A DNA stretch of 64,000 bases from Labrenzia sp. R4_2. Its GTDB lineage: Bacteria; Pseudomonadota; Alphaproteobacteria; Rhizobiales; Stappiaceae. The stretch covers positions 744,001 through 808,000 of the forward strand of contig NZ_JAGHRJ010000002.1 of assembly GCF_017743865.1 (NCBI RefSeq). Direction: 5' to 3'. A program made the position numbers and the translations under genes. A model generated the notes under the pieces. The model was not told the DNA's origin, did no database searches, and saw only the letters and a program-made list of their open reading frames with translations. The first letter of the stretch is position 1; every line of letters starts with the position of its first letter. Positions 20,547 to 25,458 of the stretch are shown in pieces.

Positions 20547-21386
20547 TCATTCGCGCTCTCCCGGTGTGGATGACCAGCTTCGAACGCCAGACGGCCGTGA
20601 CAGGGCTTGCGTACGTTCTCCATAGCGGTCTGCCAAAGCGGACAGAGCAATTTGCAGGATGATTTTCGCGCACCTTGCAGGCCATCCGCGCTCTGCCTCG
20701 ACTTTTTCAAGACCCTTCAGATGACAACACACGTCCACTAGAACACCCGCCAGAACCGGCTCCAGGCTCTCAAGAACAGTTTCCACACGCTGGCGTGCGG
20801 ACAGCACATCGTCGTTCAAGTCTTTTAGGCCACTCCCTCTAGAGCTTGTGGTGACCCGCTCGGTGCGCCAGCCCTGCCCGACCGTTGGCATCATCGACGC
20901 GAAGGTAAAGTCGGCGCGCAACCGTTCCCCCGCCCAGACCTCTTCCGGCTTCAAAAGCGGCTGGCCATTCTTCTTCTTTCGTGCCGCCAAACGGGCGAGC
21001 GGACTTTCCGAAAGATTGACCCTGGCTGTTGTTGGCCGCTTTCCAGTTTCATTGGCGCCCTTACCGTTACAAGGCACAGTTCGTATCTCGCCATGTTGAT
21101 CGGCTATGTCCTCAGATCCACTCAAGGCGCGACGGAGCGCTGCACGCCCCTCCGGACTGATCCGGCAGATGCTCTGTTCCACTCTTTTCAGAACGCCGGC
21201 CGAAAGGGCCTCTTCTATCAGCTGATTACTCCAACATGTTGATCTTGTTTTGGAATCACGGACCAATATCCATTGTGACTGCGCGCTGGAACAGTCCCGG
21301 ACAATCTCCGATCCATTGGACGACAAACAGCGCAAAAGACGAACTCGCGCGCGCCGGTCGGAGCTGTTGGCTGAAAGGAAACTCAT
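20547..21386 (-). CDS. DUF6456 domain protein
   Basis: A 279-residue protein. The N-terminal third looks like a winged-helix region (LIEEALSAGVLKRVEQSICRISPEGRAALRRAL). The C-terminal half fits DUF6456: SPLARLAARKKKNGQPLLKPEEVWAGERLRADFTFASMMPTVGQGW, then LNDDVLSARQRVETVLESLEPVLAGVLVDVCCHLKGLE. It is probably a DNA-binding or regulatory protein, but no target is known. The start overlaps the stop of the upstream HTH gene by 4 bases (ATGA), so they are one operon. Confidence 0.82.
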   Translation of the reverse strand: MSFLSANSSDRRARVRLLRCLSSNGSEIVRDCSSAQSQWILVRDSKTRSTCWSNQLIEEALSAGVLKRVEQSICRISPEGRAALRRALSGSEDIADQHGEIRTVPCNGKGANETGKRPTTARVNLSESPLARLAARKKKNGQPLLKPEEVWAGERLRADFTFASMMPTVGQGWRTERVTTSSRGSGLKDLNDDVLSARQRVETVLESLEPVLAGVLVDVCCHLKGLEKVEAERGWPARCAKIILQIALSALADRYGERTQALSRPSGVRSWSSTPGERE

Positions 21387-21796
21387 TGCGCCCCCCAGAT
21401 GCTGGCTCCGAAGAGCGGATCGCGGCGCAATGTGATCAGTGCCTCGATCTCACTGACCAACTCATCAAAAAAGGGATCTTCCCTCATGATCTCTATTTTC
21501 TTGCATGCGTGGGAAGCTGTTGAACGGTCTCTGAAATAGCGGCGCCCAACCATCGCAAGTGACAAACCGAACTCAACATGCGCGAGATACATCATCAGTT
21601 GCCGCGCACCAGAAACATGCTTGGGACCGCGATTGTGGGTAAAAAAATCCATGGGTTTGATGCAGAAGGCGCGGGATACATACCCCTCAGCAAGATGCAA
21701 ATGGGCCTCCAGCCTGTTCTCCTCTAGCAAGCAAAGTGGTTTTGCTCGCAAAGGTCTGTAGTGGTCGTGTATTGCCCCTCCCCTATCATTGAACAT
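21383..21796 (-). CDS. DnaA domain IV-like helix-turn-helix protein
   Basis: A 137-residue protein whose C-terminal half resembles the DNA-binding domain IV of DnaA: ARQLMMYLAHVEFGLSLAMVGRRYFRDRSTASHACKKIE, including the basic helix and the signature-like DRSTASHA. No AAA+ ATPase part is present. It is probably a transcription factor or replication modulator that uses the DnaA-type HTH. The ATG at 21796 follows AGGAGG, better than the start eight codons upstream. An IS1595-type element is inserted 64 bp upstream and may have displaced its promoter. Confidence 0.8.
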   Translation of the reverse strand: MFNDRGGAIHDHYRPLRAKPLCLLEENRLEAHLHLAEGYVSRAFCIKPMDFFTHNRGPKHVSGARQLMMYLAHVEFGLSLAMVGRRYFRDRSTASHACKKIEIMREDPFFDELVSEIEALITLRRDPLFGASIWGAQ

Positions 21797-21852
21797 ATTC
21801 GCACCTCCTGTCGTGAACATTAGGAAATATTCGCCTGAACTACCGAGATAGG

Positions 21853-21860
21853 CTTAAATT
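21853..21860. repeat. Target site duplication, left copy
   Basis: CTTAAATT directly precedes the left inverted repeat, and the same eight bases follow the right inverted repeat at 24831. Eight base pairs is the duplication size known for the IS1595 family. Confidence 0.9.
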
Positions 21861-21883
21861 GGCGTTATTATATTTGACAAACC
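21861..21883 (+). repeat. Left terminal inverted repeat
   Basis: Identical over 23 bp to the reverse complement of 24808-24830; the next base differs. It contains the -35 box TTGACA (21874-21879) of the transposase promoter. Confidence 0.93.
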
Positions 21884-21902
21884 CAACTTAGATTCCTATA
21901 TT
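21874..21902 (+). promoter_or_regulatory. Transposase promoter starting in the left inverted repeat
   Basis: TTGACA (21874-21879), a 17-base spacer and TATATT (21897-21902) form a near-consensus sigma-70 promoter. Transcription would begin about 12 bases before the transposase ATG at 21922. The -35 lies inside the inverted repeat, the -10 just inside the element. Confidence 0.75.
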
Positions 21903-21921
21903 GGAGTCAAGGAGTTGGAAA

Positions 21922-22890
21922 ATGTCTGTACTGTCTCGCCCGTATTTCCATTGTGAAGCCGCAGCTTTCGAGCATGTGGAGGAAATGCTGTGGCCGAACG
22001 GCCCGCATTGCCCGCACTGTGGCAACGCTGGAAAGATCTATGAATTGAAGGGTGTTCGCTCCAAGCCTTCCAAGAAGAACCCGGAAGGTGTTGAGCGTTA
22101 CGGCCTGAAAAAGTGTGCAGAGTGCCGGAAGCAGTTCACCGTCCGCATTGGAACGATCTTTGAAGAAAGCCACATTCCGCTGCACAAGTGGTTGCAGGCA
22201 ATCTATCTGATGTGTTCCAGCAAGAAGGGTATCAGCTCCAATCAGCTCGCCCGCGTTCTGGAAATCACGGTAAAGTCCGCTTGGTTCCTGTCTCACCGTA
22301 TCCGTGAGGCAATGCGCTCCGGCGAGCTTGAGCCGATGGGTGGCGCTGGCAAAGAAGTTGAAGGCGACGAAACCTATTTCGGCAACAAGGACGTAATCAC
22401 TACGCGCACCAAGCGCGGCAAGGCTGGCCTGTCCAGTAAACGTGCTGTTGTTTCTCTGGTTGAGCGCGGTGGTTCTGTCCGGTCTTTCCATGTTGATCGT
22501 GCCGACAAGCAGACCGTTACGAGCATCGTAAACGAGAACGTGAATAAGGAATCTGCGTTCTACACCGATGAAAGCCGCCTGTATAACGATGTGCATGGCA
22601 CGTTTGCTGGTGGCAGCGAGCGGGTGCACCACGCAGCAAGCGAATATGTACGCGGCCCGGCTCACACCAACACGCTGGAAGGCTATTACAGCATCTTCAA
22701 GCGTGGCATGAAGGGCGTCTATCAGCATTGTTCCGAGAAGCATCTGCATCGGTATTTGGCTGAATTTGACTTCCGGTATAACAATCGGATTAAGTTGGGT
22801 GTGGCAGATCCAGAACGCGCGGAAAAGGCGCTGAAAAATGTTAAGGGGCGGCGGTTATTGTACCGGGACTCGTTCCAAGCTCTGTCCTAA
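21922..22890 (+). CDS. IS1595-family (ISXO2-like) transposase
   Basis: A 322-residue transposase starting at ATG 21922 behind AAGGAG. It has an N-terminal zinc ribbon (CPHCGNAGK ... CAECRKQF), a helix-turn-helix-like stretch (SSNQLARVLEITVKSAWFLSHRIREAM), and a DDE-type catalytic core. Core motifs are VEGDETYFGN, FYTDESRLYN and GPAHTNTLEGYYSIFKRGMKGVYQHC, as in the ISXO2-like domain. No frameshift or stop interrupts it, so it should be active. It moves the surrounding element by recognising the 23-bp repeats. Confidence 0.94.
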   Translation: MSVLSRPYFHCEAAAFEHVEEMLWPNGPHCPHCGNAGKIYELKGVRSKPSKKNPEGVERYGLKKCAECRKQFTVRIGTIFEESHIPLHKWLQAIYLMCSSKKGISSNQLARVLEITVKSAWFLSHRIREAMRSGELEPMGGAGKEVEGDETYFGNKDVITTRTKRGKAGLSSKRAVVSLVERGGSVRSFHVDRADKQTVTSIVNENVNKESAFYTDESRLYNDVHGTFAGGSERVHHAASEYVRGPAHTNTLEGYYSIFKRGMKGVYQHCSEKHLHRYLAEFDFRYNNRIKLGVADPERAEKALKNVKGRRLLYRDSFQALS

Positions 22891-22910
22891 GTGAAACGTG
22901 GCGAATCGAA

Positions 22911-23648
22911 ATGCGGATTGGTAGGGAGATAAGCTGGATATTGCAGGGCAAAAGCCCTGACCAGATCCCTATGGTCCGGCTTGGCGAATATCTTCAGCAG
23001 CTTGCAATCATGCTTGGTGAGGAAGATGGTGTTCACTTCGCTCGCGTTGAAAAGGGCAGTACGAAAGTAGTTGCTACCCTCGACGCTGGTCAGCCTGCTC
23101 AAAATGTTCATGCGAGAGCTTATGCCGTTAGAGATGGCCGCGCGCCGCGTGATTCCATGAATGCTTTTCGCCGCATTGAAGAAATGGTTGCGCAGGACGG
23201 TGGTCGTGCCCGGCTGCAATTCGGTACGGCTACGGTACTGCGATTTACCGGACGGAATATCCTGAAAGCAGGCGCTTTCAAACTTATCGACACTGGAACC
23301 GTTACAGGTCGCCTATATTCTCTGTCTGAGGGCTCTGACCAGAGCATAAGGGGCCGAATTAGGCCTCAATTTGGCAGCGGGTATATCTCCTGTACGGCTG
23401 GCCCTGAGTTCTCTGCGATATTGCGTCGTCATTTGTTTGAGGCAGTCAGAGTCACCGGGAAAGGCGAATGGACGCGCTCTGAGGAAGGCGGCTGGACGTG
23501 CCAGCACTTAGATGTCATCGAAGTTAAGCCGGTCAAAAACACGACGCTACGTGAAGCTATTGAGACACTAAGGGCGATTGATGCGCAATGGGGTGATGAC
23601 CCATTGGCAGAGTGGGAAGAAATGGAAATGAAGGACGGGGCTGCTTGA
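22911..23648 (+). CDS. Conserved hypothetical passenger protein, upstream of PIN gene
   Basis: A 245-residue protein within the IS1595-type element. The N-terminal part (GEYLQQLAIMLGEEDGVHFARVEKGSTKVV) and the tail (DAQWGDDPLAEWEEMEM) resemble uncharacterised proteins I recall beside PIN-domain genes in proteobacteria. Its middle part is beta rich. It may be an antitoxin-like partner of the following protein, but it is longer than usual antitoxins and shows no clear DNA-binding motif. The start could be ATG 22911 or ATG 22971. It overlaps the next gene by 4 bases (TTGA). Confidence 0.65.
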   Translation: MRIGREISWILQGKSPDQIPMVRLGEYLQQLAIMLGEEDGVHFARVEKGSTKVVATLDAGQPAQNVHARAYAVRDGRAPRDSMNAFRRIEEMVAQDGGRARLQFGTATVLRFTGRNILKAGAFKLIDTGTVTGRLYSLSEGSDQSIRGRIRPQFGSGYISCTAGPEFSAILRRHLFEAVRVTGKGEWTRSEEGGWTCQHLDVIEVKPVKNTTLREAIETLRAIDAQWGDDPLAEWEEMEMKDGAA

Positions 23649-24238
23649 TCGCGGCCATTGATAATACCTTCCTGACTTTGCTGTTAAACCCTGCGGCGAA
23701 GCCCCGAACGAATCCGGCAACGAAAATACCCGCAACGCATTGCAAAGAGCGCATTGAGGGGCTGGTGGATACCATTGATAAACGGGGCGGCCGGTTGCTT
23801 GTCCCCGCGCCTTGTTTGGCCGAGGTGCTAGCATCTGATGAAGCAACGGACGCTTACATCACAGATTTGCAGTCTTATGGTGTAATTGAGATAGCCGACT
23901 TCAACGCCCGTGCGGCTTACGAGCTTGGGCACATAATCAGGAATGCTAATTTTGCCGGGGACAAGCGATCAGGAGAAAAGGGAAACTGGCAACACATAAA
24001 AATGGACCGGCAAATAGTTGCTATCGCGAAAGTCCATAATGTGGATACGTTTTATACCGATGATCAACGCCAGCGTAATTTCGCAGAGGCCGCAGGGCTG
24101 AAGGTTCTTTCCACCTGGGATTTGGATCTTCCATCCAAATTCGCTCAGATGGATATGCTCAAGGATCATAAGGATGGGCAAATTGGACAAGCCGCAGATC
24201 GAAAAATTCAAGGAAGCAGCGAAGAAACTCGGCTGTGA
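23645..24238 (+). CDS. PIN-domain protein (putative VapC-like ribonuclease)
   Basis: A 197-residue protein starting at TTG 23645 behind AAGGACGGGG, coupled to the upstream gene by a 4-base overlap. It has PIN acidic residues in order: Asp6 (LIAAIDNTFL), Glu60 (CLAEVL), Asp121 (KMDRQIVAIA) and Asp139/140 (FYTDDQ). The C-terminal strand LKVLSTWDLDLP closes the fold. PIN domains are Mg2+-dependent RNases, often toxins of VapBC systems. It is longer than typical VapC (about 130 residues), so a toxin role is an inference from fold, coupling and mobile context. Confidence 0.72.
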   Translation: MIAAIDNTFLTLLLNPAAKPRTNPATKIPATHCKERIEGLVDTIDKRGGRLLVPAPCLAEVLASDEATDAYITDLQSYGVIEIADFNARAAYELGHIIRNANFAGDKRSGEKGNWQHIKMDRQIVAIAKVHNVDTFYTDDQRQRNFAEAAGLKVLSTWDLDLPSKFAQMDMLKDHKDGQIGQAADRKIQGSSEETRL

Positions 24239-24332
24239 CGAGTCCGAGGCCGCTTTTGATGAGAAGCTAAGGCGGATCGCGAAAAAGCCACCGCCCAAAG
24301 ACGAAAATACGAAAACCAAGCCCGGCCAGTGA
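24174..24332 (+). CDS. 52-residue Lys/Glu-rich passenger protein
   Basis: A small ORF starting at ATG 24174 behind AAGGATCATAAGG and overlapping the end of the PIN gene in another frame. The product (KLDKPQIEKFKEAAKKLGCDE, then EAAFDEKLRRIAKK) is a charged helical peptide followed by a Pro/Lys-rich tail. The pattern of FKEAAKKLGCDESEAAFDEKL recalls small uncharacterised proteins on mobile elements. The stop codon lies in the loop of the terminator that ends the passenger operon. The function is unknown. Confidence 0.65.
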   Translation: MGKLDKPQIEKFKEAAKKLGCDESEAAFDEKLRRIAKKPPPKDENTKTKPGQ

Positions 24333-24345
24333 GCCGGGCTTTTTC
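24319..24345 (+). terminator. Terminator of the plus-strand passenger operon
   Basis: AGCCCGGC and GCCGGGCT form a perfect 8-bp stem with a 6-base loop, followed by TTTT. The stop codon of the 52-residue ORF is in the loop. Confidence 0.8.
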
Positions 24346-24421
24346 ATGGAGCAGCCAGTGTTCAAATATTGGAAAAGCCGCTTGATCAGATGGGTAGCAA
24401 GAATATTGCGGGTCCCAATCG

Positions 24422-24757
24422 TCATCCACCAGAGCTACTACGTCTCGAAGCCATGATTTTATCGAGATCGCTATCGGTGTAAGTGCCAAGCGTTTTGAAG
24501 CCGATTTTCGTCAGGTTTATGATCAGGATCAAATCAAGGTTTTCATCGTAGACCGCATTTTGCTTAAGGGCGCTTCTCACCTCGTCAGAGCTATCGAATT
24601 GACTGTCTATCAGGATGAACGAAGTGGTTTCATCCCAATATGTGCCATTGGTCGCGCACTGGCGGATGCACTCGTTCACAGAATCATAGCGCGTGTCATA
24701 TCCGCCATAGGGCGAGTTCTCATCTCCGATGCGAAATGAAATAGCGAAAACCGACAT
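24422..24757 (-). CDS. Small VapD/Cas2-like fold passenger protein (SinR-family type)
   Basis: A 111-residue protein starting at ATG 24757 behind GAGAGG, transcribed inward from the right end of the element. It begins VFAISFRIGDENSPYGGYDT, continues YDSVNECIRQ, TYWDETTSFILIDSQFDSSDEVRSAL and LDLILIINLTKIGF. This beta-alpha-beta pattern resembles small proteins often called SinR-family and related to the ferredoxin-like fold of VapD and Cas2. I cannot confirm catalytic residues. It converges on the terminator of the other passengers. Confidence 0.6.
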   Translation of the reverse strand: MSVFAISFRIGDENSPYGGYDTRYDSVNECIRQCATNGTYWDETTSFILIDSQFDSSDEVRSALKQNAVYDENLDLILIINLTKIGFKTLGTYTDSDLDKIMASRRSSSGG

Positions 24758-24787
24758 ATCAAATCCTCTCAAATTGCAATGAGAGGG

Positions 24788-24817
24788 ATTACACACTTAT
24801 GAGGCGTGGTTTGTCAA
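24788..24817 (-). promoter_or_regulatory. Inward promoter in the right inverted repeat
   Basis: On the minus strand the repeat supplies TTGACA (plus 24812-24817), then an 18-base spacer and TGTAAT (plus 24788-24793). It would transcribe the small passenger gene starting at 24757. Confidence 0.65.
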
Positions 24818-24830
24818 ATATAATAACGCC
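24808..24830 (-). repeat. Right terminal inverted repeat
   Basis: Reverse complement of 21861-21883 without mismatch over 23 bp. It is followed directly by the second copy of the target duplication. Confidence 0.93.
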
Positions 24831-24838
24831 CTTAAATT
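24831..24838. repeat. Target site duplication, right copy
   Basis: CTTAAATT, identical to 21853-21860. Confidence 0.9.
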
Positions 24839-24986
24839 CCTACAGTCTAGACTCACAATTCAGAGGCGTGGATAAGTTCATATACAACCTTAATGCAAGA
24901 CAGAAAGCTGCGACCGAGGGGCCGAGTGAAACCGCTGTCGGGCACGCTGGAACTCAAGACATCTGGTCTCGGCAGCCGGTCAGGCA

Positions 24987-25013
24987 CAAAAAAGGCCGCT
25001 CAAAAGCGGCCTT
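24987..25013 (-). terminator. Terminator of mucR
   Basis: AGGCCGCT and AGCGGCCT form an 8-bp stem with loop CAAA; on the minus strand the hairpin is followed by TTTTTTG. It lies 29 bases after the mucR stop. Confidence 0.85.
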
Positions 25014-25041: not shown

Positions 25042-25458
25042 TTACTTCGCGCGCTTGCGCTGTTGGCCGAGGCCCATCTTTTTCGCCAGTTCAGACCGCG
25101 CAGCAGCGTAGTTCGGGGCGACCATCGGATAGTCCGGCGCCAGATCCCACTTCTCGCGATACTCTTCCGGCGTCATGTTGTAATGGGTGCGCAAATGACG
25201 CTTGAGCGACTTGAACTTCTTGCCGTCTTCAAGACAGATGATGAAATCTGGCATGACTGACTTTTTCACAGGCACTGCGGGTTTAAGCGGCTCCGGTTCC
25301 GGCTCGTTTGAGGCTGCTGCTGTTTTCTGAAGCGCGCCATACACTTCGTTGATCAGGCCCGGAAGTTCTGTGGAAGCAACGGTATTGTTGCTGACATATG
25401 CTGAAACAATATCTGCAGTAAGGTCAATCAAATTGGCTTCAACCAGATTATCAGTCAT
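25042..25458 (-). CDS. mucR: MucR/Ros family zinc-finger regulator
   Basis: A 138-residue protein of the Ros/MucR family. The N-terminal oligomerisation region ([18 protein letters not shown]) is followed by a linker and the zinc finger [32 protein letters not shown]. The second Cys of the Ros finger is replaced by Asp, as in several rhizobial and Brucella MucR proteins, so ligands would be Cys, Asp, His, His. MucR proteins act as H-NS-like silencers binding AT-rich sites, control exopolysaccharide, motility and virulence genes, and usually repress their own gene. It has its own terminator. Confidence 0.92.

Follow-up and report, generated by a model that had tools for sequence, protein, structure and literature searches.

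The 64,000-nucleotide window analysed here (contig NZ_JAGHRJ010000002.1 of Labrenzia sp. R4_2, assembly GCF_017743865.1) contains, at positions 21861-24830, a DDE transposon of the IS1595 family that was inserted as one unit with an 8-bp target duplication. The alphaproteobacterial clade to which it belongs is built on a fixed frame, wherein a left inverted repeat (IRL), the transposase gene (tnp), a first slot (slot I), the small gene orf52, a second slot (slot II), and a right inverted repeat (IRR) follow one another. Comparison of elements with defined ends indicates that the slots change much faster than tnp diverges, and the best reading of the clade is that of a cassette-exchanging carrier of nuclease modules, which would be of toxin-antitoxin or phage-defence type. 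Taken as a whole, the explanation that joins single-unit insertion, a fixed-frame clade, fast slots, a nuclease module as cargo, and exchange between elements is considered a likely one.

The insertion itself can be read from its ends. Perfect 23-nt inverted repeats bound the element at 21861-21883 (IRL, forward strand, whose inner end carries a -35-like TTGACA) and at 24808-24830 (IRR, reverse strand, constant block 3 of the frame), and CTTAAATT is present on both flanks, at 21853-21860 and 24831-24838 (no strand assigned), as an 8-bp target duplication. When the element with 1 kb of each flank was compared with 45 same-genus genomes (the window's own included), both flanks were found whole and abutting with an 8-bp overlap in three other genomes (G051, G035, and G066; the flanks in G051 are 96% and 98% identical to the window), and the junction is a single CTTATATT in all three; this empty-site reading covers the three genomes with whole flanks, many of the remaining genomes having given partial flank matches only. 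Since both copies in the window read CTTAAATT, the base change relative to CTTATATT is probably older than the insertion. The element is present as one copy in its genome. About 2 kb of it is non-transposase DNA, as two nested insertions or a composite might also leave; such an origin is nevertheless highly improbable, given the single repeat pair and single duplication, empty sites that hold none of the element, and 72 similar-sized elements (described below) that each have their own duplication (8/8 in 68 of them). A preliminary description of this stretch, made from sequence alone, had proposed an IS1595-family element with exact ends and passengers and had suggested looking for empty sites; the repeats, the duplication, the domains, and the three relatives with a single target copy bear it out.

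Membership in the family follows established features. The transposase (21922-22890, forward strand; constant block 1) has an N-terminal zinc ribbon and a DDE_Tnp_IS1595 domain (PF12762, 3e-30; PF12760, 4e-12; NF033547, 4.7e-56), in agreement with the IS1595 domain definition in PMC8101967, and is accompanied by the 8-bp duplication and terminal inverted repeats of the family. According to the same source, one transposase gene is what such elements usually contain, whereas four more ORFs lie between the repeats here; these are no bar to membership, because the wording is "usually" and exceptions with passengers are known (PMC3129680 and PMC11891212). The latter two papers define a transporter IS (tIS) as an IS-type transposase and its ends together with passengers unrelated to transposition, which describes this element: transposase, ends, and passengers are all in place, and two of its genes, termed A and PIN below, are also found away from transposases. 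By the features tested, the element falls within IS1595 and also qualifies as a transporter IS, a known kind. The consensus inverted-repeat tip of its relatives, GGCGATT.TATA, presumably fits that of the ISNwi1 subgroup.

The frame emerges from comparison with relatives. Of 397 order genomes (own included), 67 have a transposase match at E ≤ 1e-40, and loci were collected from 40 regions at the best-ranked order matches, from genus regions, and from the best 80 of 501 confirmed genome-contig loci, for which seven transposases served as queries. Of those 80, 78 are from Alphaproteobacteria and two are without resolved taxonomy, while seven repeat order-search contigs (among them Pelagibacterium, Hyphomicrobium, and Mesorhizobium); the genus regions L115, L116, and L118-L121 contain no full transposase and were left out of the counts. 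The 123 loci entered comprise 116 distinct ones, 74 of which have ends under a rule requiring repeats of at least 17/24 with a duplication of 7/8, or 16/24 with 8/8. Two end pairs that passed the rule (L063 and L143) have repeats without the family sequence and were removed before counting, which leaves 72 bounded elements, the window's included; a reversed-downstream control of the rule was passed by 2 of 116 loci, both at the minimum of 17/24 and 7/8. The bounded elements measure 2003-4306 bp (median 2881), and the sample is one of near relatives, at 46-73% transposase identity. All 72 carry an ORF of at least 70 aa outside tnp and orf52, with no bare IS among them. The cargo had earlier been called unusual: this particular set is so, and none of the other bounded elements holds the same four genes, a point that had been suggested as a check, but carrying cargo is the rule. 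Separately, 14 IMG/VR contigs (L239-L252) encode relatives of the window transposase.

The second constant component is orf52 (24174-24332, forward strand; constant block 2), a 52-aa member of a family of about 50 aa with the consensus Q.DKFKEAARELETD.DEERFD, for which no consistent Pfam match was found across 35 members. First taken for cargo, it is instead present in 65 of the 72 bounded elements, always on the tnp strand and downstream of tnp, with three hits in 510 kb of flanks; with unbounded loci added, it occurs in 98 of 113 scorable transposase loci (three with too-short downstream parts left out). Its presence requires 2 changes on the transposase tree versus 14.4 in shuffles, and its identity rises with transposase identity (r 0.44, a value reached in 0 of 2000 permutations). 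Strong hits (E ≤ 1e-10) number 30 across the 397 genomes, and 23 of them lie at most 4 kb downstream of a strong transposase match on the same strand; the other seven are near a transposase remnant (three), near other IS1595 transposases (two), at a contig end (one), or with none in view (one). In a phylum sample of 398 genomes, for which the share outside the window's class is not given, orf52 was hit in 16, 15 of them belonging to that class. Mismatches by codon position (0.45, 0.37, and 0.61) are consistent with selection on a protein. orf52 thus counts among the core genes of the clade, and its role is probably an accessory one in transposition or cargo handling.

Between these constant blocks, little is retained. 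Twelve element pairs, chosen mostly among the closest, were compared by blastn, and in 11 of them only IRL with tnp, the orf52 region, and the right end are common (in two of the 11, the orf52 region and right end run together, slot II being absent); the twelfth pair, the window element and L113, has tnp and orf52 in common. One of the 12 pairs (L153 and L160) has a DUF3800 cluster in common as protein, not as DNA. The 65 elements with orf52 were ranked in pairs by transposase similarity, and of the top 25 pairs (85-94% aa identity) one has a cargo cluster in common (blastp 1e-5, single linkage); for A-PIN, other PIN, SocA, and cluster 6 the number of changes on the transposase tree equals the number of rows. 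Slot I is at most 150 bp in 3/65 elements and slot II at most 120 bp in 8/65, with both so reduced in none (0/65). Orientation is biased in slot II, where 46 of 52 largest ORFs run on the minus strand, and mixed in slot I (32 and 30). An ordinary alternative would have IS1595 copies catch neighbouring genes by chance, with no frame beyond tnp and the ends, and in its favour the cargo classes are scattered over the transposase tree almost as much as after shuffling. This alternative is nonetheless improbable: the frequency, single strand, and tree-tracking of orf52, its protein-like codon-position mismatches, the strand bias in slot II, and the recurrence of the same cargo families (DUF3800 in 24/72 and PIN pairs in 14/72) all argue against it.

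By cluster, the 72 elements carry DUF3800 (24), another type of PIN pair (nine), A-PIN (five), SocA (five), an unknown family (four), or other cargo (25), with Pfam having been run on cluster representatives and L149 assigned to DUF3800 by eye. DUF3800 proteins are reported to have a predicted RNase H fold and an earlier link with putative noncoding RNAs (PMC10910872); in an Rfam scan of all 24 DUF3800 element loci, a DUF3800-VII (five) or DUF3800-VIII (one) RNA was found inside six (L076, L128, L067, L159, L153, and L055, with L067 and L153 barely above the curated score). All nine other PIN genes have an upstream partner, these partners falling into four subfamilies. Comparison by hhalign gave 81.5% for A against all of these partners over the C-terminal part, with controls below 1%, and by cluster 78.5% for cluster 11 and 6.4, 0.9, and 2.4% for clusters 16, 20, and 25; homology of A to these partners is suggestive only, and the two PIN groups as profiles gave no alignment (1.0%). 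A few elements carry genes for DNA methylases (one with an Mrr-like part), NYN, HNH, P63C, or Beta-protein. The slot II of element L149:4191-7300, from an uncultured Rhizobiaceae bacterium, contains a tRNA-Thr (GGT) gene (L149:6371-6444).

In the window, slot I holds two forward-strand genes, A (22911-23648; 245 aa; PHROG 19868, of unknown function) and a PIN-domain gene (23645-24238; PHROG 21691, likewise of unknown function), the TTG start of the latter overlapping the stop of the former (TTGA). The PIN passenger noted in the preliminary description is well founded: residues D6, E60, D121, and D140 are invariant in 11/11 sequences, and are taken from the PIN family to be the catalytic acids; the protein is probably an RNase. 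Structure modelling of A predicts a C-terminal OB-fold at about residues 123-210, with best PDB matches to the OB-folds of many proteins; no target (tRNA or single-stranded DNA) is therefore claimed. Over the whole of A, Foldseek TM-scores are low (about 0.25) and the N-terminal part is barely covered, and a PDB sequence search returned nothing useful for A, PIN, or the slot II protein. As a predicted OB-fold protein, A is probably the nucleic-acid-binding partner of PIN.

The pair is mobile beyond these transposons. A-PIN loci away from transposases were sampled in plasmids, phages, viral contigs, and a genome search; the full A alignment has no conserved stretch usable for searching, and six closer A sequences served as queries for the viral contigs. 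Phages, plasmids, and genomes all yielded A-PIN loci with no transposase in view. In first-look matches, 2 of 87 genomes from the family and 10 of 397 from the order encode A (own included), as do 20 viral contigs. PIN comes after A in 32 of 36 loci, and A, PIN, and orf52 occur together in five of the 72 elements (the window's included). Cargo at the same place in relatives lacking the transposase and repeats, which had been named in advance as evidence against a transposon origin, was not encountered: A-PIN without a transposase occurs at other places, and this place is empty in three relatives. The closest A-PIN relative, L117 (G077:C5:670-1934; 47% and 51% identity), lies at a contig start with the IS1595 frame out of view, and no orf52 was found there.

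Two functions can be envisaged for this module. As an addiction (toxin-antitoxin) module benefiting the transposon, A would neutralise the PIN toxin, and loss of the element would harm the cell; the overlapping genes with PIN second, the prevalence of that order, and SocA-like (antitoxin) genes in 5/72 elements are in keeping with this, whereas the size and predicted OB-fold of A, its lack of an antitoxin family, and the argument that a lone chromosomal IS copy would gain little are not. The addiction reading is accordingly held only tentatively. Alternatively, A-PIN may act against phages, by superinfection exclusion or abortive infection, and move as a module in prophages, plasmids, and these transposons. 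In the temperate phage Ostro, A-PIN adjoins and is in line with the CI repressor gene, A recurs in viral contigs, and other elements hold DUF3800, the methylase with an Mrr-like part, NYN, and HNH genes; on the other hand, none of the five element proteins matched a PADLOC model at E ≤ 1, and the ORFs upstream of A (unannotated) differ among the other viral contigs. An anti-phage role is possible to the same guarded degree, the two functions being inseparable on present evidence and given equal weight.

With respect to mechanism, a promoter-like TTGACA-17-TATATT (21874-21902, forward strand) begins in IRL and reads into tnp, and a -35 match of at least 5/6 with a -10 match of at least 4/6 at the right spacing is found in 60% of the 72 left ends versus 16% of shuffled controls. 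tnp, A, PIN, and orf52 would be read from this left-end promoter, A would direct or restrain the PIN nuclease, and the module would act in toxin-antitoxin or phage defence. New cargo would enter by inter-element recombination in the shared tnp and orf52 blocks, although no exchange has been caught in the act. A more far-reaching proposal, which must be regarded as rather unlikely, is that orf52 and the conserved tnp end form a dedicated cassette frame, integron-like but transposon-built. Resident elements would then trade nuclease modules (A-PIN, DUF3800 with its RNA, other PIN pairs, and SocA) at two fixed slots, and orf52 would aid the exchange or guard the cargo.

Several observations weigh against a cassette-exchanging carrier of nuclease modules. 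Across five elements, the identities of A and PIN increase with that of the transposase (r 0.75 and 0.70), so the module may be partly inherited rather than exchanged. The element A proteins form one clade (91/89, not starred) that also takes in one locus with no transposase in view, so there may have been a single capture. Some clustering of cargo on the transposase tree is also apparent, weakly for DUF3800 (18 changes versus 20.5 shuffled, 63/500 as low), for "other" cargo (16 versus 21.0, 6/500), and slightly for all groups together (34 versus 38.4, 5/200). Cargo ORFs were picked by length, and single ones in the count of 72/72 may be spurious; 44 of the 116 distinct transposase loci are without accepted ends, and bare or decayed copies could hide there. 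A has no Pfam or NCBIfam family at E ≤ 1 and no antitoxin family, and it is far larger than a usual VapB, a small DNA-binding antitoxin. Lastly, a right-end promoter is unsupported as a general feature (17% of right ends versus 8% of controls).

Slot II of the window element contains a single reverse-strand gene (24422-24757) for a 111-aa protein with a predicted Cas2/VapD (ferredoxin-like) fold. The fold given in the preliminary description is thus upheld by modelling, but kinship with Cas2 is not, as no Pfam family, CRISPR_Cas2 included, matched the protein at E ≤ 1. Strand 1 closes with an Arg (residue 9) in each of the three sequences aligned; Cas2 has Asp at this point. No cas1 was found among the five genes of the element and no repeat array in 21700-25000, to which the search was limited. 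Relatives of the protein are encoded in two other IS1595 elements (L052 and L181; cluster 9), and a second small Cas2-like cluster (cluster 10) occurs in three elements, among them L057, whose slot II protein falls below the Pfam Cas2 cut-off (0.0025; 18.4 bits against 23.8). No relative was found in plasmids or viral contigs, and the one weak relative in 86 other family genomes lies beside a broken IS1595 transposase, in the same genus as the window (L116; G040:C6:23000-30500).

Among the remaining features, a hairpin with a T-run (24317-24345, no strand assigned) overlaps the orf52 stop and is terminator-like on the forward strand by eye, the scan having called the reverse strand only. A promoter-like TTGACA-18-TGTAAT (24788-24817, reverse strand) points inward from IRR into the slot II gene; it was seen in one analysis of the window and was uncalled by the promoter scan. 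The left neighbour of the element (21383-21820) encodes a DnaA C-terminal domain, and its right neighbour (25042-25458) is a MucR gene.

Insertion sequences are usually regarded as bare transposase carriers. A widespread clade in which no bare form was found, and which keeps a small gene while renewing its two cargo slots faster than its transposase diverges, would amount to a reservoir of small nuclease systems whose slots would guide the search for new ones. Some orphan Rfam DUF3800 RNAs and an uncharacterised OB-fold/PIN pair, also present in a temperate phage, are hereby placed in one mobile setting.

Among known systems, the closest likeness is to the IS1595 transporter IS, with which the element shares a zinc ribbon and DDE_Tnp_IS1595 transposase, an 8-bp duplication, and passengers unrelated to transposition (ISNha5, for example, is cited as carrying a transcription regulator in PMC11891212). 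The present clade differs in its clade-wide frame, its second core gene, its two fast-changing slots, its nuclease-type modules, and the absence of a bare form among the 72 bounded elements. ISNwi1 sizes lie near 1-1.2 kb, compared with 2.0-4.3 kb here. A-PIN resembles VapBC in that a PIN protein with four conserved acids is encoded second in an overlapping pair, and departs from it in that the upstream gene encodes not a small VapB antitoxin of a known DNA-binding family but a 245-aa protein with a predicted OB-fold. The slot II protein is like Cas2, VapD, and GhoS in fold only, with no Pfam Cas2 match and no cas1 among the element ORFs. The modular IS231-MIC231 elements, of a different IS family, likewise combine constant ends with an exchangeable inside. 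They are likened to this clade by description, not by sequence, and MICs lack a transposase (PMC3129680). No description of an IS1595 clade that combines exchangeable slots with a small, conserved second gene was found in the literature searched, which did not extend to the founding IS1595-passenger paper (Siguier, Gagnevin and Chandler 2009) or the 2014 IS review, so the frame may be published. In summary, the clade works like other passenger-carrying IS, and its clade-wide frame is a possible new variation on that known theme.

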